Below are positions 1,464-18,863 of a stretch of 23,012 bases of DNA, one piece after another. The stretch covers positions 1 through 23,012 of the IMG/VR virus record IMGVR_UViG_3300037264_007292; one strand, written 5' to 3'. The DNA is from a virus. The notes under the pieces are model-generated. The model was given only the letters and a program-made list of their open reading frames with translations, was not told the origin of the DNA and searched no databases. The translations under genes were made by a program, and so were the position numbers. The stretch's first letter is position 1, and each line of letters opens with the position of its first letter.

Positions 1464-2131
1464 CGGAGCAGGACGAGACGGCGGTGGCGGTGGCGGGTGC
1501 GGTGGAGGGGCATGAGGAGGCGCCGTCGGCGGTGGGGGCGGACGGGTTAACGTGGCGGCAGCGGCGATTTGCGAAGGAATATGCGAAGGATTTTGACGGG
1601 TCGGCGGCGTGTCGGCGTGCGGGGTATCAGGGGATTCCTGGGACGCTGGGGACGAAGGCGTATGAGTTACTGCGGCATCCGGGGGTGAAGCGGGCGGTGA
1701 GTCGGGCGTGCGTGGCGATTGAGGCGACGGTCCAGGTGAAGGCGGAGCAGGTGGTGGGGGAGTTAGTGCGGCTGGCGATGGCGGACATTCGGGAGATTTT
1801 CGATGAGGAGGGGCGGTTAGTGCATCCGCGGGAGTGGACGGACCAGATGGCGTCTGCGGTGTCGAGTGTGGAGTTCATCACGCGGGAGGTGGGGCAAGGG
1901 GAAGTGGAGCACGTGGCGAAGGTGAAGTTATGGGACAAGCCGAAGGCGTTGGAGTTATTGGCGAACCATCTGCGGCTGTTGCGGTCGACGGTCGAGCATG
2001 TGAATGTGCAGGAGCGGGTGTTTGAGTCAGACGAGCAGTTGCAGATGCGGATTTTGGCGTTGGCGATGGACGTGGATGCGGGGACGCGGGCGAAGGTGCG
2101 GGCGTTACTCGAGGCGCGGGAGACGAATTGA
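1460..2131 (+). CDS. terS: Terminase small subunit
   Basis: This 223-residue protein recognises phage DNA and loads the large terminase for packaging. After a 30-residue acidic/Ala-rich leader it shows the Terminase_2-type helix-turn-helix region: TWRQRRFAKEYAKDFDGSAACRRAGY at about residues 31-56, then the TLGTKAYELLRHPGVKRAV segment. The central part carries LVRLAMADIREIFDEEG and the conserved LWDKPKALELLANHL segment near residue 160-170, both usual in this family. The start overlaps the upstream stop as ATGA and its own stop overlaps the TerL start as TGATG. Codons end overwhelmingly in G, unlike genes from about 2450 onward. Confidence 0.92.
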   Translation: MTEQDETAVAVAGAVEGHEEAPSAVGADGLTWRQRRFAKEYAKDFDGSAACRRAGYQGIPGTLGTKAYELLRHPGVKRAVSRACVAIEATVQVKAEQVVGELVRLAMADIREIFDEEGRLVHPREWTDQMASAVSSVEFITREVGQGEVEHVAKVKLWDKPKALELLANHLRLLRSTVEHVNVQERVFESDEQLQMRILALAMDVDAGTRAKVRALLEARETN

Positions 2132-2910
2132 TGCGGGGGAGTGAGGCGACGACGCCGGGGGAGGAGTTGCGGGAGGGGTTGGCGAAGCTGCAGTCGCGGC
2201 GGACGTCGAAATTTCGGCAGTATTTTCCGGAGACGGGGCCGTTGCGGCGGGCGTTGTATGTGAAGCACACGGCGTTCATGGCGGCCGGCGCGACGCATCG
2301 AGAGCGGGTGTTCCTGAAGGCGAACCGGGTGGGCGGGACCGAGACGGCGGCGTATGAGCTCACCTGTCATCTGACGGGGTTGTATCCGGCGTGGTGGAGC
2401 GGCCGACGGTTTGGCGGGCCGATCAAGGGGTGGGCGGCGGGGCAAACGATGCTCACGACCCGCGACATTGTGCAGGTCGCGTTGATGGGCCCGACCGAGG
2501 GCGTGGCCGGCGGGGACTGGTCGGGCATGATCCCGGCCGAATGCGTCGATCGGACGAGCCGGAAGAGCGGGGGCGTGTCGCTCTGTCTCGACCAGGCCCT
2601 GATTCGGCACATCAGCGGCGGGATGTCCTGCCTGGAATTCAAAAGTTACGACCAGGGCGAGGTCGCGTTCATGGGTACCGTCCAAGACGCCATCTGGCTC
2701 GATGAAGAGCCGCCGGAAGCGGTGTACACCGAATGCGTGATTCGGACGATGACGAGCAATGGGCTGATTCTGGCGACGTTTACGCCGTTACTGGGCCTGA
2801 CGCCGTTCCTGCAAAGTTACCTCACGAGTGCGTCGATGCCCGATGCGCAGGGGGCGTTGCAGCCGGCGATGCACGTGTTTTGGCCGGACCGCGGCGACCA
2901 CGCGATCTAG
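2131..2910 (+). CDS. terL: Terminase large subunit, ATPase part (split gene)
   Basis: This is the 259-residue N-terminal half of the packaging motor. It has the P-loop region at residues 60-72 (VFLKANRVGGTE), WAAGQT..TTRDIV near 101-114, the Walker B acidic pair in IWLDEE at 188-193, and the ATP-coupling motif TFTPLLG at 216-222. The P-loop lysine is Gly (G69 in RVGGT, where relatives have RVGKT), although Lys63 lies at the front of the loop, as in some terminases. The frame stops at TAG 2908-2910 just where the linker to the nuclease should begin; the nuclease continues in the next frame. ATG 2131 is chosen (TGATG overlap with terS). Codon choice shifts from G-ending to C-ending across about 2300-2470, inside this gene. 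Confidence 0.88.
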   Translation: MRGSEATTPGEELREGLAKLQSRRTSKFRQYFPETGPLRRALYVKHTAFMAAGATHRERVFLKANRVGGTETAAYELTCHLTGLYPAWWSGRRFGGPIKGWAAGQTMLTTRDIVQVALMGPTEGVAGGDWSGMIPAECVDRTSRKSGGVSLCLDQALIRHISGGMSCLEFKSYDQGEVAFMGTVQDAIWLDEEPPEAVYTECVIRTMTSNGLILATFTPLLGLTPFLQSYLTSASMPDAQGALQPAMHVFWPDRGDHAI

Positions 2911-2947
2911 CGGGGGCGGAAAGCATCTAAATGCGCATAGGAACGCG

Positions 2948-3685
2948 ATGAGCCGCTTCGTGATTGGGGCGACCTGGGACGACGCACCGCATCTCACGGC
3001 CGAGGCCAAAGCGGATCTCTGGGCGTCGATTCCCGCGTTCCAAAAAGATGCGCGGTCGAAAGGCATTCCGCAGCTCGGATCGGGCGCCATTTATCCCTTT
3101 CCCGAATCCGACATCCGCGTGGCGGACTTCGCGATCCCCACGCACTGGCCGCGCGCGTTCGGCTTGGACTGCGCCCTCGGCGGCACCACCGCGATCGTCT
3201 GGGGCGCGCTCGACCGCGACTCCAACACGCTGTATCTCTATTCCGTGTACACCCGGGCCGCCGCGGAAATCGCCATCCATGTCGACGCCTTGGCCGCCCG
3301 CGGCAAGTGGATTCACGGCGTCGGCGATGCCTCCGGCGTGATTGACGCCGACCGCACGAGCTTCCTGTCGAAATATCGGCAGTACGGCGTGAACGTCGAT
3401 TTGCCCGACAAGACGATCGAAACCGGCATCCAAGACGTGTATGACCGCCTCTCTGCGGGTAAACTAAAGGTGTTCACGAGCTGCGTCGCGTGGTTCGGGG
3501 AATATCGGTTGTACCGACGCGATAAACTAGGCCGGGTGGTGAAAGCACTCGACCACACGATGGATGCGACACGCTACTTGGTCCGATCGGGACTGAGTCG
3601 CGTGCGCCTCTGCCCCGCCGAGCCCGTCACCGAGACGGCCTTGGAGTACGGCGAGCACCACGCCGCGACGGCGTGGATGCGCTAA
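2948..3685 (+). CDS. terL: Terminase large subunit, nuclease part (split gene)
   Basis: This 245-residue protein is the RNase H-fold nuclease half of TerL, which cuts the concatemer during packaging. It opens with the conserved FVIGATWDDAPHLTAEAK region (residues 4-21) and DARSKGIPQLGSGAIYP (34-50). Candidate metal-binding acidic residues are D74 (FGLDCALGG), D127 (GVGDASG) and D206 (HTMDATRY), so the domain looks intact. It is in the +1 frame relative to the ATPase half. All frames but this one contain stops between 2908 and 2951. ATG 2948 has its own AGGAA at 2939-2943, so it may be translated independently. The same frame stays open upstream to about 2828, so a frameshifted fusion is also possible. 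Confidence 0.88.
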   Translation: MSRFVIGATWDDAPHLTAEAKADLWASIPAFQKDARSKGIPQLGSGAIYPFPESDIRVADFAIPTHWPRAFGLDCALGGTTAIVWGALDRDSNTLYLYSVYTRAAAEIAIHVDALAARGKWIHGVGDASGVIDADRTSFLSKYRQYGVNVDLPDKTIETGIQDVYDRLSAGKLKVFTSCVAWFGEYRLYRRDKLGRVVKALDHTMDATRYLVRSGLSRVRLCPAEPVTETALEYGEHHAATAWMR

Positions 3686-8029: not shown

Positions 8030-8926
8030 ATGAGCGTGTCAATCATTATTCCCTGCCGTCACGAGCGCTTCCTCATTCCCACCGTCAATAATCTCCTCAC
8101 GAAAGCCGACGGGGAGATTGAAGTCATCGTCACCCTCGATGGGTACACCGACGCCGAGGTCGCCGCGCTTTACCAGGCGGAAGTCCCCCTGACGACGGAC
8201 AGCCGAGTGACGCTGGTCGTGAAACCTCTCGCGGTGGGCATGCGCGAAGCCATCAATGCGGCGGCCGCGGTCGCCACCGGCGACTATCTGATGAAAATTG
8301 ATGGACACGTCCTCATGGCCCAGGGCTTTGATACCGTGCTCATCGCCGATATCGAACCGAATTGGGTCGTCGTGCCACGCCGGTATGCGCTCGATCCGAT
8401 CGCGTGGTGCATTGCGGCCGATCGCCCGCACATTGACTACCACTATTTGAGTTGGCCGTATATCGACCCGGCCCACGTGGGGTTGCATGGCCGGTGGTGG
8501 CGCGAGCGGCAACACGCCCGGGCCGATGTCCTAGTCGATGACGACATGAGCAGTCAAGGATCGTGTTGGTTCATGCACACGTCGCATTGGACCGATCGCT
8601 TGCAGGGCTTGTCGACCGATGGGTATGGCGATTTCATCCAGGAGTACCAGGAAATCGGCGGGAAAACATGGCTGGGTGGCGGGGCGTGCAAAACGAACAA
8701 GCGCACCTGGTACGCGCACCTCCACAAGGGCAAAACGTACGGCCGTGGTTACAAGGTCAGCCGGTCGAGTTGGGAGCGGGGGGTGCAGTACAGCGCCGAC
8801 CTCTGGATGAATAATCGCTGGCCCGATCGGGTCCATGACATCGATTGGCTCATCGAGAAATTTTGGCCGATTCCAACCTGGCCTGACGACTGGCGCACCC
8901 ACGACTTCTCCGATCTCGTGCGATGA
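8030..8926 (+). CDS. GT2-type glycosyltransferase, copy 1
   Basis: This 298-residue protein has a GT-A fold signature. It opens with SIIIPCRHERFLIPTVNNLL (residues 4-23), the strand VIVTLDGY (32-39), and the metal/nucleotide site DYLMKIDGH (85-93), where DGH stands for the usual DxD. The acceptor half has SSQGSCWFM, WYAHLHKGKTYGRGY and a FWPIPTWPDDW ending. The same landmarks occur in the genes at 12614 and in the N-terminal half at 14883, so the three are paralogs. It would move a sugar from a nucleotide donor to an unknown acceptor in the cytoplasm. ATG 8030 follows GAGGAG at 8016-8021; ATG 8025 is out of frame. Confidence 0.85.
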   Translation: MSVSIIIPCRHERFLIPTVNNLLTKADGEIEVIVTLDGYTDAEVAALYQAEVPLTTDSRVTLVVKPLAVGMREAINAAAAVATGDYLMKIDGHVLMAQGFDTVLIADIEPNWVVVPRRYALDPIAWCIAADRPHIDYHYLSWPYIDPAHVGLHGRWWRERQHARADVLVDDDMSSQGSCWFMHTSHWTDRLQGLSTDGYGDFIQEYQEIGGKTWLGGGACKTNKRTWYAHLHKGKTYGRGYKVSRSSWERGVQYSADLWMNNRWPDRVHDIDWLIEKFWPIPTWPDDWRTHDFSDLVR

Positions 8927-9189
8927 CGACCTCCGTCCTCGTCTCCAGTGACGCCCACACCGAAACCCTGGCGATGTCGCAACTCGCCGTCCTCCACGCC
9001 AGACTGGATCTCCAGCAACTGGTGGCGATCTGTACGGGCTATTGGCCGCGGACCGCCTTCCCCGAGGACGACCGCCTCGTGATCCTCCACACCGGGACGG
9101 TGTGGACCGAGGCCGAGATCTGGCGCGCGTTTACCATCCTGGCCACCGGTCACCACGGTGTCCGCTATGCAGAGTGGATCACACAATGA
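8923..9189 (+). CDS. Hypothetical small cassette protein
   Basis: This 88-residue protein overlaps the preceding stop (ATGA) and its own stop overlaps the next start (ATGA). It is soluble-looking and mildly acidic, with strands and helices (MSQLAVLHARLDLQQLVAICTGYWP, then DDRLVILHTGTVWTEAEIWRAFTILATG). No motif or family is recognised. Tight coupling on both sides places it functionally with the glycosyltransferase and the methyltransferase. Confidence 0.7.
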   Translation: MTTSVLVSSDAHTETLAMSQLAVLHARLDLQQLVAICTGYWPRTAFPEDDRLVILHTGTVWTEAEIWRAFTILATGHHGVRYAEWITQ

Positions 9190-9818
9190 CGACATACGAC
9201 CTCTTTCACCAGACGCTGAATCCCACCGCTAAACCCTCGCCCGTGATCCTCAACCAGTTTGGGCGAACCGACCTGATCCGTCTGCTCAATCAGGCCGCGC
9301 TGACCAAAGGGGTGGAAGTCGGCGTGGCCGATGGTCGACACGCGCTCTTACTGTGTCACGGCATTGCCGGCTTGGAACTCATCGGCGTCGACCCGTGGAT
9401 CCGCTACAAAGGCAACTCCCGTGGTGGCGGGCAGGAGCAGCAGTCGGGCAATCTGGAAAAGGCGAAAGCGCGACTGGCTGGATTCGGCGTCAAATTGCGC
9501 CAGGCCAAGAGCATGGACGCGGTGAAAGATGTTGAGATGGAAAGTCTCGACTTCTGCTATATCGACGGGAACCATACGTTTGACTACGTCATGATGGACA
9601 TTCTGGAATGGGCCAAGCGAGTGCGACAGGATGGCGTCATTGCTGGTCACGACTTCTATGAGTTTGGCCATGAGGCGCACAACTGGGCTGGGGTTCAAGA
9701 GGCCGTCGTGGCGTACACCACGGCGCATCACGTGACGGAGTGGTTCGTGACCGAAGAGCGGGAACCCACGTGGTTCTTCGTGAAAGAGGCGGAGAAGTTC
9801 CCGCATCGAGGCTGGTAG
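9186..9818 (+). CDS. Class I SAM-dependent methyltransferase (Methyltransf_24-like)
   Basis: This 210-residue enzyme has the Rossmann SAM site at residues 42-50 (GVEVGVADG), followed by LELIGVDPW (63-71). The acidic post-motif is LDFCYIDGNHTFDYVMMDILEWAKRV (121-146), then QDGVIAGHDFYEF (148-160). The IDGxHxxxxVxxD...GGxxxGHDF style is that of Methyltransf_24, often found in glycan biosynthesis and in phage genomes. The likely substrate is a sugar made by the neighbouring transferases, which is inferred from context. Starts and stops overlap both neighbours (ATGA on the left, TAGTG on the right). Confidence 0.85.
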   Translation: MTTYDLFHQTLNPTAKPSPVILNQFGRTDLIRLLNQAALTKGVEVGVADGRHALLLCHGIAGLELIGVDPWIRYKGNSRGGGQEQQSGNLEKAKARLAGFGVKLRQAKSMDAVKDVEMESLDFCYIDGNHTFDYVMMDILEWAKRVRQDGVIAGHDFYEFGHEAHNWAGVQEAVVAYTTAHHVTEWFVTEEREPTWFFVKEAEKFPHRGW

Positions 9819-10117
9819 TGGAGAATTCAACAACGCTGAAGCCGGTGATTGAGTGGCGAGCGGTCGTGGTGGGGGATATCTACGATTCCCGGTGTACGAT
9901 GCCGGTGTCAAGCGAACTACAGATGTGCTTGGACATGATCATGCGAGGGCCGATCAATCTCGCCATGTTGATCGGGGTGCTCGAAGAAGTTCGTGACGAT
10001 GCTCGTGCCAGAGAATCGTATCGTGCGGGATCGACGTGTCCCTCGTGTGGGATGGTGCATTCTCATATGAGCTGGTGTTCATTGGCGACATCTGGGCTCA
10101 CGATAGGAGGGACATGA
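9818..10117 (+). CDS. Small hypothetical protein with Cys/His cluster
   Basis: A 99-residue frame starts at GTG 9818 inside TAGTG and ends as ATGA with the next gene. A helical middle (SSELQMCLDMIMRGPINLAMLIGVLEEVRDDARARESYR) is followed by CPSCGMVHSHMSWC, a CxxC-x4-H-x-H pattern that could bind zinc. The overlaps on both sides support translation. The function is unknown. Confidence 0.55.
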   Translation: MENSTTLKPVIEWRAVVVGDIYDSRCTMPVSSELQMCLDMIMRGPINLAMLIGVLEEVRDDARARESYRAGSTCPSCGMVHSHMSWCSLATSGLTIGGT

Positions 10118-11007
10118 AGGTCTATGTCCAACCCCAACCGCATCAGTCTCGTGGTCTCGCCCGTATCGGTGACGCCGTGGCCCGCTACGTTCCAGCCGGC
10201 GTCGATGTCGTCACCGACGATGCCCAGGCCGAGCTCATCGTCCTCCACGTCATCGGGCGGATCGGCCACGTGACCCGACGCATTGCCCAACTGAAGGCCG
10301 AAGGCCGGCGCTACGCGATCATCCAATACGCCCTGCGGTCGACCAAGGCCAGCCACACGCGCGACTGGGCTCCGCTCTGGCGCGATGCCGCGGCCGTGTG
10401 GTGCTCCTACGATTTGGCGGCCGCACTGGAGGTCGATGGCTTCGGTGCCCACGACATTAGGGGGATGCCGTTCTACTACGCCCCCTATGGGGCCGATGAC
10501 ACGATCTTCACCCCCCAGGTCCAGCCGCATCCGCGCCCCTTCCTGGCCTGTACGACCGGGTTCTCCTGGATGACCGAGAGTGTGCGCGAGGTGGCCTTGG
10601 CAGCACAGGTACGCGGCGGAAAGGTCTTCCATCTCGGCCCAGATCTCGGGCGGGAGTGGCTCACGTGTGCCATGAATATCGACGACCAGACGCTCGCGAC
10701 TTACTACCGCCAGTGCCAGTGGGTCTCGGGGCTGCGGCGGACGGAAGGGTTCGAGATGCCGGCCGTCGAAGGGCTCCTGTGCGGCGCTCGGCCGATTCTG
10801 TTCGACGTCCCCCACTACACGCACTGGTATGGCAGCCTCGCGCGCTACGTGCCCGAACGGGCGTTCCGGGCCGACATCGTGACGGATCTCATCTACGTGT
10901 TCGGGTTGCGGGTGCCCACGGTGACGACGGCCGAGCGGGCCGACGCGGTGAAGCGGTTCCATTGGCCGACGTTGGTGGGGCAATTCTGGAAGCAGGTGCT
11001 GGCATGA
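10114..11007 (+). CDS. GT-B type glycosyltransferase (GT4-like)
   Basis: This 297-residue protein begins at ATG 10114 with GGAGG at 10106-10110, overlapping the previous stop. An in-frame ATG at 10036 exists but lacks this ribosome site. The N-terminal half has strand-helix units, and the C-terminal half carries the donor-site signature RRTEGFEMPAVEGLLCGARPI, an EX7E motif typical of GT4-like transferases. At under 300 residues it is shorter than standard GT4 enzymes (about 350-400). It differs in fold from the GT-A enzymes in the same cassette, so it probably adds a different linkage. Donor and acceptor are unknown. Confidence 0.8.
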   Translation: MKVYVQPQPHQSRGLARIGDAVARYVPAGVDVVTDDAQAELIVLHVIGRIGHVTRRIAQLKAEGRRYAIIQYALRSTKASHTRDWAPLWRDAAAVWCSYDLAAALEVDGFGAHDIRGMPFYYAPYGADDTIFTPQVQPHPRPFLACTTGFSWMTESVREVALAAQVRGGKVFHLGPDLGREWLTCAMNIDDQTLATYYRQCQWVSGLRRTEGFEMPAVEGLLCGARPILFDVPHYTHWYGSLARYVPERAFRADIVTDLIYVFGLRVPTVTTAERADAVKRFHWPTLVGQFWKQVLA

Positions 11008-12617
11008 GTTCCCCGTATTCCGCCATGAAGTTCTACGCCCACCAAGACCGGCTGGCGATGCTGCGGGTCGGCCAACACGTGGCGCCGCTGCATGTGCAGC
11101 TCATCGTGTCAGATTTGTGCCAACAAAACTGCGGGTTCTGCATGGCAGTTGGTACAATGGTCTCTACGCCATCAGGGGACAGGCGTATAGAGGAGATCAA
11201 AGGTGGCGACACCATTTACGGACCCGACGGGCAAGCAACGAGGACGCGGGAGACTTCGGTACGCGACGTGGAGGAAGTGGTTGAACTTGTCGCCGGAGGT
11301 TGTCGCATCGTTGCCTCCCCTGAACACCCGGTACTGACGCAGGATGGCTGGAAGGAAATCGGTCGAATCCACACAGGGGATTCCGCCGTTGTGCGAGTGC
11401 GGATGCGGGAAACCTGTTGTAGCGTCACGCGTGCAGGTGTTGGTGGTCTGGAAGCGGGACCACCGATGCCGCATTCCGAACGCGCTACTTGCGGCGATTC
11501 AGGACTTCGTATCGCAGGACTCGCGTTGGAGCGGGGCTTGGAATTACGACCAGTTACTTCGGTACGACGTATCCACGGACCTGTTCGCGTCTACAACGTA
11601 AGCTGCGACCCCGTTGAGGCGTTCGAGGCCAACGGCATCGTCGTCCACAACTGTGCGTATCGCCAAGAGGGCTACACCACGAATACCCTCTTCGGCGTCG
11701 AGGAAGCGGGGCGCCGGAACAACAATCCGAACCGGCAGATCCCCACCGATAAGGTCATCGAGATCCTCAGTGATTGTGCCCGTCTTGGCGTCAAAGCGAT
11801 TCAGTTCACCGGGGGCGGCGAGCCGTGCCTCCACAAAGACCTCGACCGCTTCCTGCGGTATGGCGAGGCGTGCGCCTTCGATCTGGCGCTGGTCACGAAT
11901 GGGGTGGCCGTCACGCCGGCGATTCTCGAGCCCCTCCTGGCGGGCGGGGACAACTGGGTGCGGTTCTCGATTGACGCCGGCACGGCGGAGACCTATTGCG
12001 CCATGCGTCGGGCGCCACGCCAGCATTGGACCCAGGTCTTCAACCATATCGGGATGGCCGTGAAGATGCGCGATGACACGCCGAGGGCTCGGCTCGTCAT
12101 TGGCGTCGGGTTCGTCGTGACCAAGGAAAATTGGAGAGAAGTCGTCCAGGCGACCCAACTCGCCAAGGATCTCTGTGTCGACAACATCCGCATCAGCGCC
12201 GTCTTCCAATCAGACGATGCGGACTACTTCAAGGACTTCCATGTCGACGCCGCGCACGCCTGCGCGCAGGCCGAACAGCTCGCGACTGAGACATTTCAGG
12301 TGATCAACATGTTCGGCGACCGCCTCAGCGATCTCGAGCTCGCGCATCCCGACTACACCGCCTGCGGCGTGCAGCGCCTCACGACCTATATCGGTGGCGA
12401 CCAAAGCGTCTACCGCTGTTGCAACTTGGCCTATCACCCCCGTGGGTTCCTGGGGTCGCTCATCGACCGGCGCTTCTACGATCTCTGGAAGGATACCCAG
12501 ACGCACAAGGACTTTGATGCCTTCGACGCGCACGGGTGTCCGCGCTGCCAGTTCAACGAGAAGAACCGCGTCATGGCCGAGGCGATCAAGCCGATCAAAA
12601 ACGTGAACTTCGTATGA
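11004..12617 (+). CDS. Radical SAM enzyme interrupted by an intein
   Basis: The precursor is 537 residues and the spliced enzyme would be 366. Residues 39-46 give C-x3-C-x2-C, the [4Fe-4S]/SAM motif. The third cysteine is also residue 1 of an intein (46-216) ending in VVHN, and the C-extein starts with Cys217, which restores CxxxCxxCAYR on splicing. Downstream are FTGGGEPCLHKDLD (the GGEP SAM motif), LVTNG, and a Cys-rich end (CGVQ..., RCCNL, CPRC) like a SPASM or twitch auxiliary cluster domain. The reaction is unknown; sugar or peptide modification fits the cassette. The start overlaps the GT-B stop (ATGA) and the end overlaps the next GT2 start. Confidence 0.9.
   Translation: MSSPYSAMKFYAHQDRLAMLRVGQHVAPLHVQLIVSDLCQQNCGFCMAVGTMVSTPSGDRRIEEIKGGDTIYGPDGQATRTRETSVRDVEEVVELVAGGCRIVASPEHPVLTQDGWKEIGRIHTGDSAVVRVRMRETCCSVTRAGVGGLEAGPPMPHSERATCGDSGLRIAGLALERGLELRPVTSVRRIHGPVRVYNVSCDPVEAFEANGIVVHNCAYRQEGYTTNTLFGVEEAGRRNNNPNRQIPTDKVIEILSDCARLGVKAIQFTGGGEPCLHKDLDRFLRYGEACAFDLALVTNGVAVTPAILEPLLAGGDNWVRFSIDAGTAETYCAMRRAPRQHWTQVFNHIGMAVKMRDDTPRARLVIGVGFVVTKENWREVVQATQLAKDLCVDNIRISAVFQSDDADYFKDFHVDAAHACAQAEQLATETFQVINMFGDRLSDLELAHPDYTACGVQRLTTYIGGDQSVYRCCNLAYHPRGFLGSLIDRRFYDLWKDTQTHKDFDAFDAHGCPRCQFNEKNRVMAEAIKPIKNVNFV
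11139..11651 (+). mobile_element. Mini-intein (171 aa) in the radical SAM cluster motif
   Basis: The Hint splicing domain runs from Cys46 to Asn216 of the precursor. Block A reads CMAVGTMVSTPSGDRRIEEI; block B is GGCRIVASPEHPVLT with His108 (SPEH where TxxH is usual); blocks F and G read RVYNVSCDPVEAFEANGIVVHN with the penultimate His and terminal Asn. The +1 residue is Cys. All residues for class 1 splicing are therefore present. There is no in-frame homing endonuclease; a linker of about 70 residues joins block B to block F. Integration at a catalytic cysteine is typical of inteins, which favour conserved active sites. Confidence 0.9.
11344..11601 (+). pseudogene. Possible out-of-frame homing endonuclease remnant inside the intein
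   Basis: In the +1 frame relative to the intein an 85-codon frame encodes GIPPLCECGCGKPV at about residues 12-25, then a basic VVWKRDHRCR segment and later DSRWSGAWNYD. A CECGCGxPV knuckle followed by an RGH-like basic strand is a familiar opening of phage HNH endonucleases, and WxGA resembles a second element of such proteins. No HNH catalytic motif follows. I read it as a possible frameshifted and deleted endonuclease between Hint blocks B and F, but chance overlap in a GC-rich frame is a real alternative. Confidence 0.25.
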
Positions 12618-13474
12618 CGCCGGTCGTCAGCGTCCTGATTCCGTCTCGGGAGGAAGTCTTCCTCGATCGGACGATCGCGGACGTGCTCGCGAAGGCCGTC
12701 CTGCCGATCGAAATCATTGTCATCCTGGATGGGTACGCCCCTACCCTCTCGGTGATCGACCCCCGCGTGACCTATGTGACGTACCCCACACCCGTGGGGA
12801 TGCGCACCGCCCTGGCGACAGCCTCCAAGGCCGCCCGCGGCGACTTTCTCATGAAATTGGATGCCCACTGTCTCGTCCAACAGGGTCTCGACCAGGTACT
12901 CGCCAACGCCTGTGGTCCGCAGACGATCGTGATCCCCCGTCGCTATCGGTTGAATGAAGAGGCCTGGACGCCGAGGCTGGAGGAGGGGCCGGTCGACTAC
13001 GAGTATTTTATTTGGCCGAAGAAGTTTGATCCACCAGGCTTGCACGGGTTTCACTGGGTCGATCGCACGCAGCGTCGGCTGGCGATCACAGTCGATCCGA
13101 CCCTCACCTTTCAGGGATCGTGTTGGTTCATGCCGGCGGAACATTTTCGCGCGCATCGGTTTCTCGAGGATCCCGGCTATCAGGGTCTCCCGCAACAGGA
13201 AGCGGAGGAACTGGGCCTCACGACCTGGACACAGGGCGGTCGGGTGATGGTCGTCAAAGATACGTGGTATGCCCATCTGTTTAAGGGAAAAAAACATGGC
13301 CGCGGCTATCGGATCGACAAGGACGTGTCCGACGCCTGTTATCGCTATTCGTTCGAGACTTGGGTGTACCAGCATCGACCGGCCTTCAAGGCCGTGATCG
13401 AACAGTTTTGGCCGATTCCGGGTTGGCCGGACAACTGGGAAGAGAAACTCGATGATCTGAAAGGCCCCCGATGA
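12614..13474 (+). CDS. GT2-type glycosyltransferase, copy 2
   Basis: This 286-residue GT-A enzyme is paralogous to the one at 8030. Landmarks are VSVLIPSREEVFLDRTIADVL (5-25), IIVILDGY (34-41), GDFLMKLDAHC (76-86, DAH as the DxD-type site), TFQGSCWFM, WYAHLFKGKKHGRGYRI and FWPIPGWPDNW. It lacks the zinc ribbon of the 14883 paralog. ATG 12614 overlaps the radical SAM stop, and its own stop overlaps the next gene, so enzyme amounts are probably coupled. Donor and acceptor are unknown. Confidence 0.86.
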   Translation: MTPVVSVLIPSREEVFLDRTIADVLAKAVLPIEIIVILDGYAPTLSVIDPRVTYVTYPTPVGMRTALATASKAARGDFLMKLDAHCLVQQGLDQVLANACGPQTIVIPRRYRLNEEAWTPRLEEGPVDYEYFIWPKKFDPPGLHGFHWVDRTQRRLAITVDPTLTFQGSCWFMPAEHFRAHRFLEDPGYQGLPQQEAEELGLTTWTQGGRVMVVKDTWYAHLFKGKKHGRGYRIDKDVSDACYRYSFETWVYQHRPAFKAVIEQFWPIPGWPDNWEEKLDDLKGPR

Positions 13475-14193
13475 CGCCGCTGGCGTCGATCATCATCGCC
13501 ACGTATAACCGGCCCGCGGTACTCGACCGCACCCTCCGCAGTATCGTGCGGCAAGTGGTGCCGTTCCCGTACGAGGTCATTGTGGTGGATGACGGGTCGG
13601 ACGATCCCCAAGCCGTATCCGTCGTTGTGGCGCAGTATGGATTCCCCCCAAGTGTATCGCTGGCCCCGACCCGGTACCGGAATCCCGCGGTCGCGCGCAA
13701 TGTGTCCGTGCAGCGGTCCATGGGGTCGATTCTGATCCTCCAGTCGGACGACGTGGAGCATGACGGTCAAGCCATCACCACCCTCGTCTCTCGCCTGCAA
13801 GAAGATCACGATACGTGTGTCCTGGCGACGGTCACGAACGTCGACGCCGAGGGCCGGCCTCTCGATCTCTATACCGGTCCGCACAAACGGCGACTCCTGT
13901 TCTTTCTGGGCGCCGTCCGTCGTGAGCATTTTCTCGCCGTCGGCGGATTCGACGAGTCGTTCATTGAGCCCGGCTACGAGGATAAGTGGTTTGGCACGTG
14001 TCTCGAGCGCATCGGGGTGCAGCCCTGTTTCCTGAATGATGTGCACGGCCGGCATCGGGACCATCCACGCCCCGACAACAGTAAAAGTCCGGTGTCTAAA
14101 AAAGTGTACCGCGATCATGTCACACATGCGGAACAGGTGGGCGGCTGTTGGCGTGCCTGGTCCAGTCCCTTCGTGGCGCCCCATGCCTGCTGA
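13471..14193 (+). CDS. GT2-type glycosyltransferase, canonical type
   Basis: This 240-residue protein is a classic family-2 type enzyme: ASIIIATYNRPAVLDRTLRSI (5-25), EVIVVDDGSDD (35-45), NPAVARNVSV (71-80), the metal site LQSDDVEHD (90-98), and GGFDESFIEPGYEDKWFGTCLERIG in the C-terminal half, where galactosyltransferase-like enzymes carry GGFDE..GxED. It ends in a basic HGRHRDH segment and a variable tail. It is distinct from the DAHC-type paralogs. The start overlaps the previous stop (ATGA), and the tail overlaps the next gene by 11 bases. Confidence 0.87.
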   Translation: MTPLASIIIATYNRPAVLDRTLRSIVRQVVPFPYEVIVVDDGSDDPQAVSVVVAQYGFPPSVSLAPTRYRNPAVARNVSVQRSMGSILILQSDDVEHDGQAITTLVSRLQEDHDTCVLATVTNVDAEGRPLDLYTGPHKRRLLFFLGAVRREHFLAVGGFDESFIEPGYEDKWFGTCLERIGVQPCFLNDVHGRHRDHPRPDNSKSPVSKKVYRDHVTHAEQVGGCWRAWSSPFVAPHAC

Positions 14194-14890
14194 CCTCACG
14201 CTGCTGTACTACTCGTGCAACGTGATTCCAGAGGGGTTCGCGACCCGCGTCCGCGCGCATTTATTGTCGATCAAAGACCCCGCTTGGCCGATCGTCAGTG
14301 TGACGCATGAGCCGATCGACTTCGGCCGCAATATCGTCGTGGGACAAACCTTAGGCCGCTCGGTCTGGGCGATCTATCAACAAATCGCCATCGGGGCCGC
14401 CGTCATCGAGACGCCCTATGTGGCCTGTGTCGAAGACGACAGCCTGTACACCCCGGCCCATTTCGAGACGCGCCCGAACCCCGGGGAATTCACGTACAAC
14501 ATCAGCCGGCTCTGGCTCGAACAGGACACGTTTCGGTATCGTCGCCGGACGGGCATGTTTACGTGCATTACCGAGACACAGGCGCTTCGAGACGATCTCG
14601 CCAGACGTCACGCCAAGTACCCCACCTGTGTCTGGCACAAAAAGGATCGGGATACCGTGCCGGCGCCCGCCTGGTTCAAGTACTACGGCGAACCCGGCCG
14701 GTGTAATACGCTCCTTAAACTCCCGCCCGTGCCCTGGTCCTATGTCGAGACGCCAGACGCGCCACCCGTCACGGTCAATCACTTCACCAGCCTGGGCGGG
14801 AAGCGGCGAACCGAAATGGGCGATACGCTGTTTGTGGACCATCCCTATTGGGGTTCGGCCCCCGACTTGTGGAGACAGGTTCATGGCTGA
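14183..14890 (+). CDS. Glycosyltransferase-like protein with EDD motif
   Basis: This 235-residue protein begins at ATG 14183. It has a GT-A-like layout: DLTLLYYSCNVIP (4-16), WPIVSVTHEPIDFG, IYQQIAIGAAVIETPYVACVEDDSLYTPAHF (64-94) with an acidic EDD at 84-86 that probably binds the metal, then NISRLW and a late VNHFTSLGGKRR. Its EDDSLYTPAHF segment matches EHDVLYSASHF in the C-terminal half of the next protein, so the two are homologous: one standalone and one fused. Enzymatic activity is inferred from this motif only. Confidence 0.7.
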   Translation: MPADLTLLYYSCNVIPEGFATRVRAHLLSIKDPAWPIVSVTHEPIDFGRNIVVGQTLGRSVWAIYQQIAIGAAVIETPYVACVEDDSLYTPAHFETRPNPGEFTYNISRLWLEQDTFRYRRRTGMFTCITETQALRDDLARRHAKYPTCVWHKKDRDTVPAPAWFKYYGEPGRCNTLLKLPPVPWSYVETPDAPPVTVNHFTSLGGKRRTEMGDTLFVDHPYWGSAPDLWRQVHG

Positions 14891-16688
14891 GTTGAGCGTG
14901 CTCATTCCCTCGCGCAATGAACGCTGGCTGAACCAGACGATTACGGATGTCCTGGCGCATGCGACGCGCGACACCGAGGTGATCGTCGTCTTGGACGGGG
15001 CGTGGCCGGAGGACCCGATCGCGAAACATTCACGCGTTCATGTCGTCTATCAGCCCGTCTCGATTGGCCAGCGGGCGGCGACCAATCTGGCGGCGAAACT
15101 CTCACAGGCCCCGTACCTGATGAAACTCGATGCGCACTGTAATGTGGCGCCGGGATTCGATGATGTGTTGATCCGGTGTGCCGAGACGTTGGGACCGAAG
15201 ACAATTCAAGTGCCAGCCCAGTACAACCTGCATTGTTTCGACTGGATCTGCGACACCTGTCAGGAACGGACCTATCAGGGCCCCACGCCGACGGCGTGCC
15301 CGAAATGCCAAGGGCTGCCGCACCATCGTGAGGTCATCTGGAAGATCCGCCAATCACGCCTGACGGTCTCCTGGCGCTTCGATCGGAACCTGCACTTCCA
15401 GTATTGGGGCGAGTACAAAAATCGACCGGAGAATCAGGTCGAGTTCCTCGACGTCATGAGTTGTCTCGGGGCGTGTTGGTTTGTCTCCGCCCACCGCTAC
15501 TGGGAGATTGGCGGACTCGATGAAGGACACGGCAGTTGGGGCCAGATGGGCACGGAGATCGCCTGTAAGTCCTGGCTGTCCGGGGGCCGGCTGGTCTGCA
15601 ATAAACGGACGTGGTTTGGGCATATGTTTCGGACGCAGGGCGGAGATTTCGGGTTTCCCTACCCCTTGTCCGGGAGCGCGGTCGACCGGGCCCGAAAACA
15701 TTCCAAATCCTTATGGCTTGACGGACGCTGGCCCCAGGCCATCCGGCCGTTGTCGTGGATGATTGAGAAGTTCGCGCCGGTGCCCGATTGGACGACACCC
15801 GAGACCGGGGCGGACACCGAGGCGCAACGCGCGCGCGAACGCGCCGATCTGGAGGATCCGGAACCGATCACCCCGCAACTGTCGGCCTCCATCGCGCCCG
15901 TCCTCGACATCCCCCTGCCCCCGATCACGTGGCCGTCCACCTGGGCGACGACGCCCTCGAAAGGCCTCATCTACTACACCGATAGCCGACTCGATCCAGA
16001 CCTGATGCAGGGGGTTCAGCGGCAACTCGTCCGGGCGTGTGCCGGTCTGCCGATTGTGGCCGTGGGGTTGGCGCCATTCGTCTGGCCAGAGGCCACGGTC
16101 ATCACCCTCCCGCGGCCGCGGGGCTACGAGACCATGTTTCACGAGATTTTGACCGCGCTTGAGGCCCAGACGACCGATGTCGTCTTCTTTTGCGAACATG
16201 ACGTCCTTTACAGCGCGAGTCACTTCACGTTTACCCCACTTCGGCGGGATACTTACTACTACAACCAGGCCGTCTGGCGCGTGGATGCGCTCACGGGTCG
16301 GGCGGTGACCTACGTCACCAAGCAAACCAGTGGGTTGTGTGCCGATCGGGGACTGTTGATTCGGCATTATCGAGAGCGGCTTCGGCGGATTGCCGCGGCC
16401 GGGGGGAAATACCCGCATCAGATGGGGTTTGAGCCCGGATCACATGGGCGCCCCCAACGGGTGGATGATGTGCCCTCAGCCGTGTGGCAGTCGACGGTCC
16501 CGAACGTCGACATTCGACTCCCGGGCTCGTTGACCCCCTCGCGCTGGTCACCGGCCGAGTTCCGGAATGCACGCAGTTGCCGGGGCTGGATCGAAGCAGA
16601 CGGTGTGCCAGGCTGGGGTGTGACGAAGGGACGATTCGCGGAGTTTTTTCAGGAACAGACACCGGGGCAGGTGAAGGAGCAGGGATGA
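14883..16688 (+). CDS. Two-domain glycosyltransferase (GT2 plus EDD-type domain) with zinc ribbon
   Basis: This 601-residue fusion starts at ATG 14883, overlapping the previous gene by eight bases. The N-terminal half (1-310) is the DAHC-type GT2 seen at 8030 and 12614: LSVLIPSRNERWLNQTITDVL, YLMKLDAHC (78-86), CLGACWFV and WFGHMF. Unlike the paralogs, it has a zinc-ribbon-like insert at 123-142 (CDTC-x12-CPKC). A polar linker (about 310-360) leads to the C-terminal domain: GLIYYTDSRLDP, TTDVVFFCEHDVLYSASHFTF, and KQTSGLCADR. The fusion suggests two successive transfers by one protein. The final segment is Trp/Arg-rich and unassigned. Confidence 0.82.
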   Translation: MAELSVLIPSRNERWLNQTITDVLAHATRDTEVIVVLDGAWPEDPIAKHSRVHVVYQPVSIGQRAATNLAAKLSQAPYLMKLDAHCNVAPGFDDVLIRCAETLGPKTIQVPAQYNLHCFDWICDTCQERTYQGPTPTACPKCQGLPHHREVIWKIRQSRLTVSWRFDRNLHFQYWGEYKNRPENQVEFLDVMSCLGACWFVSAHRYWEIGGLDEGHGSWGQMGTEIACKSWLSGGRLVCNKRTWFGHMFRTQGGDFGFPYPLSGSAVDRARKHSKSLWLDGRWPQAIRPLSWMIEKFAPVPDWTTPETGADTEAQRARERADLEDPEPITPQLSASIAPVLDIPLPPITWPSTWATTPSKGLIYYTDSRLDPDLMQGVQRQLVRACAGLPIVAVGLAPFVWPEATVITLPRPRGYETMFHEILTALEAQTTDVVFFCEHDVLYSASHFTFTPLRRDTYYYNQAVWRVDALTGRAVTYVTKQTSGLCADRGLLIRHYRERLRRIAAAGGKYPHQMGFEPGSHGRPQRVDDVPSAVWQSTVPNVDIRLPGSLTPSRWSPAEFRNARSCRGWIEADGVPGWGVTKGRFAEFFQEQTPGQVKEQG

Positions 16689-17767: not shown

Positions 17768-17786
17768 GGGTCAAAAGGAGGCGGTG

Positions 17787-18863
17787 ATGAAGTCTGTATT
17801 GGGGTTGCTCGTTGGCCTGCTCGGCGGGTATGTGGCTGGTGCGGCTGCCATGACACTGTTCGCACCGACGCCCGTGACATGGGACGCCTCGACCTGTGCG
17901 GCTGGCGTCTACGATGTTACCGCCACCGCGACGAGGACCGGCTCCCCGTCGCAGACCTTCACCTTGACGAACGTGACGCTGCCCGCGCCACAGGTGACCG
18001 TGAGTTTTGCCGACCTCCCGCCACTCGTCTACAACGTGACCGCCGTGTCGACTCGCCGGTCCGATGGACTGGTCGCGACGTCCAGCGCACAGAGCGTCGT
18101 CGGATTGGGCACGCCATTGCCGACGCCGACCCCCACACCCACGCCCACCCCCACGCCGACGCCGACCCCCACGCCCACGCCCACCCCGACGCCGGTTCCA
18201 GGCCAGTCGCCAGATTGCACGCAGGTTATTGCTGTGAATGGCAATTCGCCAGCGATTGTCGATGCACTACTGCACAGTTGGGCGATTTCTTCGACCTGGA
18301 CGTTGCGCGATGGCGCATATTCGATTCCAGGCGGTGGAGACATCGGCGGCGCGTCGGGCACGAAGCTGATGCTGGTTGCTGGCGTCGTCCATGCGTATGA
18401 CGCGCGGCCAGCGAAGCTGCAGTGGTATCGCTGGAATGAGCGGCCGCCGTTTGCCGGCATCGGTGGGACAACGACGTACGGGAGCTGGACAGCAGTGGGG
18501 GCGGCGGATCCTGTGTGCCCCGTGCCTACGCCGACCCCGACCCCGACGCCCACGCCGACCCCCACGCCGACCCCCACGCCGACCCCCACGCCGACGCCGA
18601 CACCCGCACCGCTTCTGGTCACCGCCGTGATGGCCGTCAAGACGTGCACTGTCGTGCTCACGGCAGACCCGCCGGATGCGTCTGGCGGCTGGAAGGCGCA
18701 GTTTCGGCGCGGGTCTGGGACGAGCGTGGGCACGGCCGATGCGACGTCGCCCTATACGCGGTCGACGACACTGAGCGCAGGGACGTACCAGTTCTATGTC
18801 GTCTGGACGAAGACGGGGATGGTGACGCAGACGAGCGTCATCGCGCTGCTGGACTGCAAGTGA
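17787..18863 (+). CDS. Membrane-anchored beta-domain protein with two Thr-Pro linkers
   Basis: This 358-residue protein begins at ATG 17787 with AGGAGG at 17776-17781 (GTG 17784 is less likely). Residues 4-26 form one hydrophobic segment (SVLGLLVGLLGGYVAGAAAMTLFA), an uncleaved anchor or signal. A fibronectin- or Ig-like domain follows (about 36-107), then a Thr-Pro linker of about 30 residues. Next come a second domain with CTQV...WYRWNERPPFAG and a second Thr-Pro linker. The C-terminal Ig-like domain (KTCTVVLTADPPDASGGWKAQF to the closing LLDCK) has two cysteines that may pair. The layout suits a surface-exposed stalk. The Thr-rich linkers could be glycosylation sites, which is inference. 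Confidence 0.75.
   Translation: MKSVLGLLVGLLGGYVAGAAAMTLFAPTPVTWDASTCAAGVYDVTATATRTGSPSQTFTLTNVTLPAPQVTVSFADLPPLVYNVTAVSTRRSDGLVATSSAQSVVGLGTPLPTPTPTPTPTPTPTPTPTPTPTPTPVPGQSPDCTQVIAVNGNSPAIVDALLHSWAISSTWTLRDGAYSIPGGGDIGGASGTKLMLVAGVVHAYDARPAKLQWYRWNERPPFAGIGGTTTYGSWTAVGAADPVCPVPTPTPTPTPTPTPTPTPTPTPTPTPTPAPLLVTAVMAVKTCTVVLTADPPDASGGWKAQFRRGSGTSVGTADATSPYTRSTTLSAGTYQFYVVWTKTGMVTQTSVIALLDCK
18120..18195 (+). repeat. Short-period repeat encoding Thr-Pro linker 1
   Basis: Tandem CCGACG/CCCACG-type hexamers encode alternating Thr and Pro. The codons vary between ACG and ACC, so the array is not a single pure repeat. Confidence 0.8.
18524..18609 (+). repeat. Short-period repeat encoding Thr-Pro linker 2
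   Basis: A second array of the same type, with a clear 12-base unit (GCCGACCCCCAC) at 18553-18590. It is more homogeneous than linker 1, which suggests recent slippage or duplication. Confidence 0.8.

Follow-up and report, generated by a model that had tools for sequence, protein, structure and literature searches.

A mini-intein in a phage radical SAM gene, probably derived by deletion from an intein with an out-of-frame endonuclease

Background

Inteins have been described with the endonuclease either as an in-frame domain or, if the intein is split, as a separate gene between the two halves. Fractured genes with split inteins, accompanied by free-standing and partly Vsr-like endonucleases, were reportedly described by Dassa et al. 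in 2009 (NAR 37:2560, as cited in PMC12350094). A further arrangement is that of the ShiLan insertion, whose endonuclease ORF is out of frame, which has no splicing domains and which is thought to remain within the protein (PMC11855218). Our search of the open-access literature for endonucleases encoded out of frame within a contiguous intein returned only reports of the ShiLan type.

The element studied here lies in IMG/VR record IMGVR_UViG_3300037264_007292, of which the whole 23,012-nt stretch was analysed (the window). With canonical class 1 inteins and mini-inteins (e.g. the Mtu RecA mini-intein, PDB 3ifj) it shares the Hint fold, Cys1, the block B His, the His-Asn pair and Cys+1, and also the location in a conserved active-site motif and the loss of the endonuclease that gives a mini-intein. 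However, the endonuclease of canonical inteins is an in-frame domain, whereas in the family of the window it is encoded by the +1 frame, and the middle of the intein frame seems to be meaningless filler. The likeness to ShiLan is an insertion free of host-frame stops that carries an endonuclease ORF in a different frame, but ShiLan lacks an intein splicing domain, while here intein halves lie on both sides of the out-of-frame endonuclease; in the window itself the splicing domains flank on both sides (Pfam and structure model), which separates it from a ShiLan-type insertion. Fractured genes also have an endonuclease gene between the halves at the usual point, and of a Vsr-like type (a likeness that is tentative here), but their intein frame is broken, whereas in the window family one cis precursor spans the endonuclease gene; the window has a single open frame in place of the separate ORFs of a split intein. 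The intein-containing Rv2578c family of radical SAM proteins (NCBIfam NF038136) has its intein at the same motif cysteine with an ungapped alignment up to Cys1, but the window scores 38.2 bits against this model, the cut-off being 700, and belongs to a different enzyme family.

Anatomy of the intein and its insertion site

The features of the radical SAM gene are as follows (intein residues are numbered from Cys1).

11004..12617, forward strand: radical SAM gene, ATG at 11004 to TGA at 12617, stop included (PF04055; uninterrupted relatives)
11004..11138, forward strand: N-extein, 45 aa, last residues CQQNCGF (alignment with the intein-free P0004)
11118..11141, forward strand: CxxxCxxC of the precursor, made of Cys39, Cys43 and intein Cys1 (residue 46) (sequence)
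11139..11651, forward strand: mini-intein, 171 aa, intein frame (Pfam, NCBIfam and PDB matches; Hint-fold model; Foldseek)
11316..11327, forward strand: intein block B, S-P-E-H, a TxxH variant with His63 (sequence, relatives compared)
11409..11534, forward strand: intein residues 91-132, pLDDT below 50 (AlphaFold2), read as out-of-frame filler
11646..11654, forward strand: penultimate His, terminal Asn and Cys+1 (sequence)
11652..12614, forward strand: C-extein, 321 aa, probably including the later Cys of a SPASM-like region

The precursor is encoded by one unbroken ORF of 537 codons (537 aa) and would be 366 aa long once spliced. Its extein is a radical SAM protein (PF04055, 54 bits against a Pfam cut-off of 29.5) with CQQNCGFC at the predicted join. 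Across the insertion the sequence reads SDLCQQNCGF/C...VHN/CAYRQEGY (slashes at the intein ends), which on removal of the intein becomes CQQNCGFCAYR; the sequence after excision reads SDLCQQNCGFCAYRQEGY. Of the splicing residues, Cys1 (TGC, 11139-11141), block B His63, His170, Asn171 (AAC, 11649-11651) and Cys+1 (TGT, 11652-11654) are present. Block B departs from the usual TxxH in having Ser for Thr (S60-P-E-H63, i.e. SxxH) with the His kept, and among the related inteins SPEH is also found in L086, the others having TGxH.

As for the identity of the element, the Pfam matches to Hint_2 (PF13403, E 1e-5) and Intein_splicing (PF14890, E 2e-5) do not reach the curated cut-offs, and the model of the intein C-terminal region (TIGR01443, matching VVHN/C) scores 15.8 bits, the cut-off being 15.6. 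A PDB sequence search with the intein returned solved inteins and intein-like domains (best E 5e-7). The AlphaFold2 model has a Hint fold that is mostly confident at residues 1-90 and 133-171, and with this model Foldseek found inteins and Hint domains (best E 8e-9; 52 chains below 1e-3). The element is best explained as a cis-splicing class 1-type intein that sits at the third motif Cys, and the precursor is predicted to splice and thereby restore CxxxCxxC.

An uninterrupted site was sought among relatives gathered by a scan with the extein alignment of the window and L014, which gave 52 viral and 4 genome loci. CxxxCxxC is uninterrupted at the insertion point in 48 of the 52 viral loci and in all 4 genome loci, most of them reading CxxxCxFCAYR, and the join left by the window intein is therefore seamless. 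The remaining 4 viral loci have inteins (L038, which is the same as L014, L045 and L054) or, in L064, a short odd insert. The intein-free homologue from podovirus MW202801 also aligns over the join, at 27% identity overall. It may be noted that the radical SAM relative at L064:3932-4300 reads SDLCQQDC-VNPDGTP-WCAYR, with a few additional residues separating the second Cys from the third; the insert may be an intein scar, or the motif may be aberrant. Close radical SAM relatives are also present in bacterial assemblies (L075-L078; Rhodopirellula, Zixiibacteriota, TA06 and Laterigemmans), and one of these, L076, resembles the viral contig L030 and looks like the same element.

The initial annotation had placed a mini-intein at 11139-11651, at the third radical SAM Cys, and these coordinates are exact, and its identity as an intein has support from Pfam, TIGR01443, PDB and Foldseek. 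All the splicing residues that it claimed are present, the block B motif being SPEH and not TxxH, and the precursor does read C-x3-C-x2-C with intein Cys1 as its last Cys. The seamless join to radical SAM families and the intein-free phage homologue, both of which it had proposed looking for, are borne out by the above loci and by the MW202801 copy. It had also called the enzyme a phage enzyme, which agrees with the P22-type portal and large terminase on the same contig, making the contig podovirus-like.

The radical SAM gene is surrounded (8030-16688) by one methyltransferase and at least four glycosyltransferases of family 2, an arrangement resembling the gene island of MW202801, where the intein-free copy lies between the capsid gene and glycosyltransferases. 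The enzyme is probably part of a sugar-modification pathway. Elsewhere in the window the large terminase (2128-3685) is present as two overlapping ORFs in different frames (Terminase_6N at 2128-2910 and Terminase_6C at 2828-3685), a split that is due to a frameshift, or else to an indel from assembly, near 2870-2910, and the ORF at 17784-18863 has two long PTPTPT repeats and encodes a low-complexity linker-like protein.

An endonuclease remnant in the +1 frame

The anatomy, site and join given by the initial annotation are thus correct, yet the description was incomplete, as the remnant of an endonuclease in the +1 frame of the intein had been overlooked. Its parts are:

11344..11601, forward strand: +1-frame ORF of 85 aa followed by TAA, out-of-frame endonuclease remnant (alignment to L014; codon statistics)
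11389..11409, forward strand: start of the remnant, zinc-finger-like motif L-CECGCG in the +1 frame (DNA near-identical in L014, L085 and L086)
11410..11436, forward strand: approximate deletion junction, about 190 endonuclease codons of L014/L085 absent, frame kept
11437..11598, forward strand: end of the remnant, VLVVWKRDHR...WSGAWNYDQLLRYD...ASTT in the +1 frame (both frames conserved with L014 and L045)

Local alignment of the remnant to the +1-frame protein of L014 gave a score of 144 (z 25.8, reached in 0 of 1000 shuffles) and matches the L014 endonuclease at its two ends. Codon statistics trained on the other genes of the window favour the +1 frame at about 11415-11565 and disfavour the intein frame at about 11415-11580. 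The bases 11389..11409 encode the CECGCG motif when read in the +1 frame but VRVRMR as part of the intein, and the CECGCG motif is also found in phage endonuclease-like proteins such as L006. What remains in the +1 frame is the first zinc-finger-like motif and the last approximately 55 endonuclease codons, the latter (11437..11598) sharing bases with the part of the intein that leads up to and enters block F. Since the intein is 171 aa long in the window and 362 aa in L014 and L085, about 190 codons have been lost with the frame preserved. The +1 ATG at 11344 has no ribosome-binding site before it. Taken alone the window is not significant, as only 0.5 intein-frame stops are expected, and its meaning depends on the relatives, which are metagenomic contigs except FoX3 (see below); with these, the alignments point to the window intein having arisen by deletion from one with an overprinted endonuclease.

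Relatives with a complete out-of-frame endonuclease-like ORF

Direct viral scans using the window intein or the C-extein found nothing, nor did a DNA pattern of a TN-x-CN-type radical SAM motif followed by an intein start. The pattern that revealed the family, with which viral contigs were scanned, was intein block B and then CxCGCG regardless of frame, and in all the true inteins obtained (L008, L014, L018) the CxCGCG motif is out of frame. Five full-length radical SAM inteins are listed below, L079 being the full version of L008, together with the result of synonymous shuffles in which the endonuclease protein was kept fixed, its codons were swapped among synonyms and intein-frame stops were counted.

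L014: intein at second Cys, 362 aa; +1-frame endonuclease-like ORF; stops expected 9.0, observed 0, P 0 of 20000
L085: intein at second Cys, 362 aa; +1-frame endonuclease-like ORF; stops expected 6.8, observed 0, P 1.5e-4
L054: intein at third Cys, 295 aa; +1-frame endonuclease-like ORF; stops expected 4.3, observed 0, P 2.6e-3
L079: intein at third Cys, 410 aa; +1-frame endonuclease-like ORF; stops expected 7.5, observed 0, P 1e-4
L086: intein at third Cys, 341 aa; +1-frame endonuclease-like ORF; stops expected 7.9, observed 0, P 0 of 20000

Each of these genes is a single open frame of 697-816 codons (725 aa for the L014 precursor) with a +1-frame ORF of 212-294 codons as counted from the zinc-finger-like motif, and the third frame at these loci has 10-19 stops. 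With each P at or below 2.6e-3, the chance of a stop-free intein frame over the five loci jointly is essentially nil. Between L014 and L079 the endonuclease frame is similar at z 39.1 and the intein-frame centre at z 3.2, and the mismatches between L014 and L085 fall at endonuclease codon positions 1, 2 and 3 in 101, 88 and 158 cases, respectively. Conservation extends to both frames over the last approximately 23 endonuclease codons, as this DNA also encodes the run-up of the intein to block F. Among the window, L014 and L045 the substitutions are too sparse for their periodicity to decide the frame. The shuffle probabilities, the similarity in the endonuclease frame and the third-position mismatches together argue for dual-frame constraint, in which the endonuclease frame is constrained at the protein level and the intein frame to remain open.

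These comparisons also bear on the reading of the window element as an ordinary mini-intein whose +1 similarity is due to chance or is a by-product of conserved intein residues, the DNA of VRVRMR happening to encode CxCGCG. The motif taken alone is indeed conserved in both frames and the statistics of the window by itself are weak, but this reading is very unlikely given the match to both ends of L014, the long +1-frame ORFs of the relatives, the concentration of mismatches at the endonuclease third position and an intein-frame centre that is unconserved between families.

Another reading is that the endonuclease is truly in frame and has been shifted by two compensating assembly or sequencing errors. 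The frameshift in the terminase gene shows that indel errors are possible in this contig. However, five independent contigs share the +1 offset, FoX3 (a cultured and completely sequenced phage) and L080 have a +2 offset, and each pair of errors would also have to keep the intein frame free of stops, against the probabilities listed above; we consider such errors a highly improbable cause. A compensating frameshift pair limited to the window intein was dropped as a candidate, the relatives having the same offset.

Regarding the nature of the +1-frame protein, that of L014 (289 aa) has two CxCGCG-type fingers, an NNPMKDP motif and an NPDF...KKVIEI core, and a PDF...K.IIE-type motif is common to the +1 proteins of the relatives and the free-standing L006 protein, which scores 19.4 with DUF559, below the Pfam cut-off of 20.6. 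The endonucleases of the radical SAM inteins were not recognised by Pfam or PHROGs, a PDB sequence search with that of L054 gave chance matches only, and none of the +1-frame proteins of the window, L014, L054 and L079 had a tblastn match among phage records. The predicted structure of the L054 endonuclease has a pLDDT of 35 and no fold is claimed for it. From motifs and alignment the +1-frame protein would be an endonuclease of uncertain type, perhaps Vsr-like (EDxHD). A ribosome-binding site is not consistently present before the endonuclease ORFs, though a plausible one exists in L054 (GAGG then ATG), and the start sites vary from locus to locus.

A second mini-intein is present in L045, at the second Cys, and retains in its +1 frame only the last approximately 48 endonuclease codons. 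The splicing domains of the window and L086 are 50% identical, compared to 32% for the exteins of the same pair, and the second-Cys inteins form a closer group among themselves (53-60%). This fits with movement of the intein between divergent radical SAM genes, with the motif codons as the target.

The idea of an iron or redox switch

In the initial annotation it was suggested that cluster binding and the first splicing step would compete for Cys1, giving a possible iron- or redox-sensitive switch. On this reading a cluster bound by the precursor on CxxxC and intein Cys1 would block the first splicing step, and splicing would report iron or oxygen status. The arrangement at the third Cys is shared by the window, L054, L079 and L086, and stress-responsive inteins have been reported from other hosts, as for mycobacterial DnaB (PMC6195587). 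But the inteins of L014, L085 and L045 are at the second Cys and their precursors lack CxxxCxxC, so competition between cluster and splicing is no family-wide property; for Cys1 it is chemically possible in the third-Cys inteins and absent by construction in the second-Cys ones. Insertion into the most conserved codons is also what homing leads one to expect, and most relatives have no intein. We therefore regard the switch as very unlikely.

The same layout in phage helicases

On the L018 contig a helicase precursor (L080) has an intein at DE/C..VHN/CH, with PF14890 at 46.8 bits, above the cut-off, and its +2 frame encodes a LAGLIDADG_2 endonuclease (E 6e-25; 88.6 bits, cut-off 25). In gp40 of the cultured Xanthomonas phage FoX3 the intein scores 46.5 bits with PF14890, and LAGLIDADG_2 is again found in the +2 frame (E 8e-22; 78.3 bits, cut-off 25). 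As FoX3 and L080 share the layout, it is neither an artefact of metagenomes nor limited to one enzyme. Both the 314-aa intein and the +2-frame LAGLIDADG of gp40 (L081:1938-4304) are unannotated, the gene being listed as a putative DNA helicase.

Helicase genes broken at the DEC box by intein halves were also seen in Pectobacterium phage Ymer (L082) and Escherichia phage AN_ECEAS (L083). Here a LAGLIDADG-like gene lies between the halves in another frame and there are stops in the intein frame, i.e. these are fractured genes, and both phages are cultured ones. Their layout lends some support to reading the window likewise as a fractured gene, with the halves of a split intein encoded on either side of a free-standing endonuclease gene, made as separate proteins and joined by trans splicing. 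Yet in the window and in all radical SAM relatives the intein frame is free of stops from N-extein to C-extein, so that one precursor is possible, and a fractured gene is hardly to be expected here.

Proposed origin and implications

As judged from the sequence comparisons, the window intein thus very probably arose by deletion, its ancestor being an intein with a homing endonuclease overprinted out of frame on the same strand. In the full-length relatives a separate translation event (an internal start or a frameshift) would make the endonuclease, which would then cut intein-free alleles at the motif codons and so spread the intein. The window copy, without the nuclease core, could splice but could not home by itself. 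In the precursor the out-of-frame filler would form a disordered loop at the place where the Hint fold usually takes up an endonuclease, and this would account for its being tolerated.

More broadly, and with somewhat less assurance, we think it likely that overprinted inteins are a distinct and recurrent architecture, in which two open frames are under selection and the endonuclease is translated separately. It would have arisen at least twice (+1 in radical SAM genes and +2 with LAGLIDADG in phage helicases) and would link mini-inteins and full inteins to fractured genes, with the window as a fossil stage. Annotation pipelines will miss such endonucleases because they are hidden inside longer ORFs, FoX3 gp40, labelled a helicase, being a case in point. 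One DNA stretch would serve as intein filler in one frame and as endonuclease in another while the precursor is left uninterrupted, which would account for some of the inteins whose large centres are unrecognisable. With overprinting, splicing and homing would be uncoupled at the translation step, and overprinted inteins may be a missing step from fractured genes to ordinary inteins.
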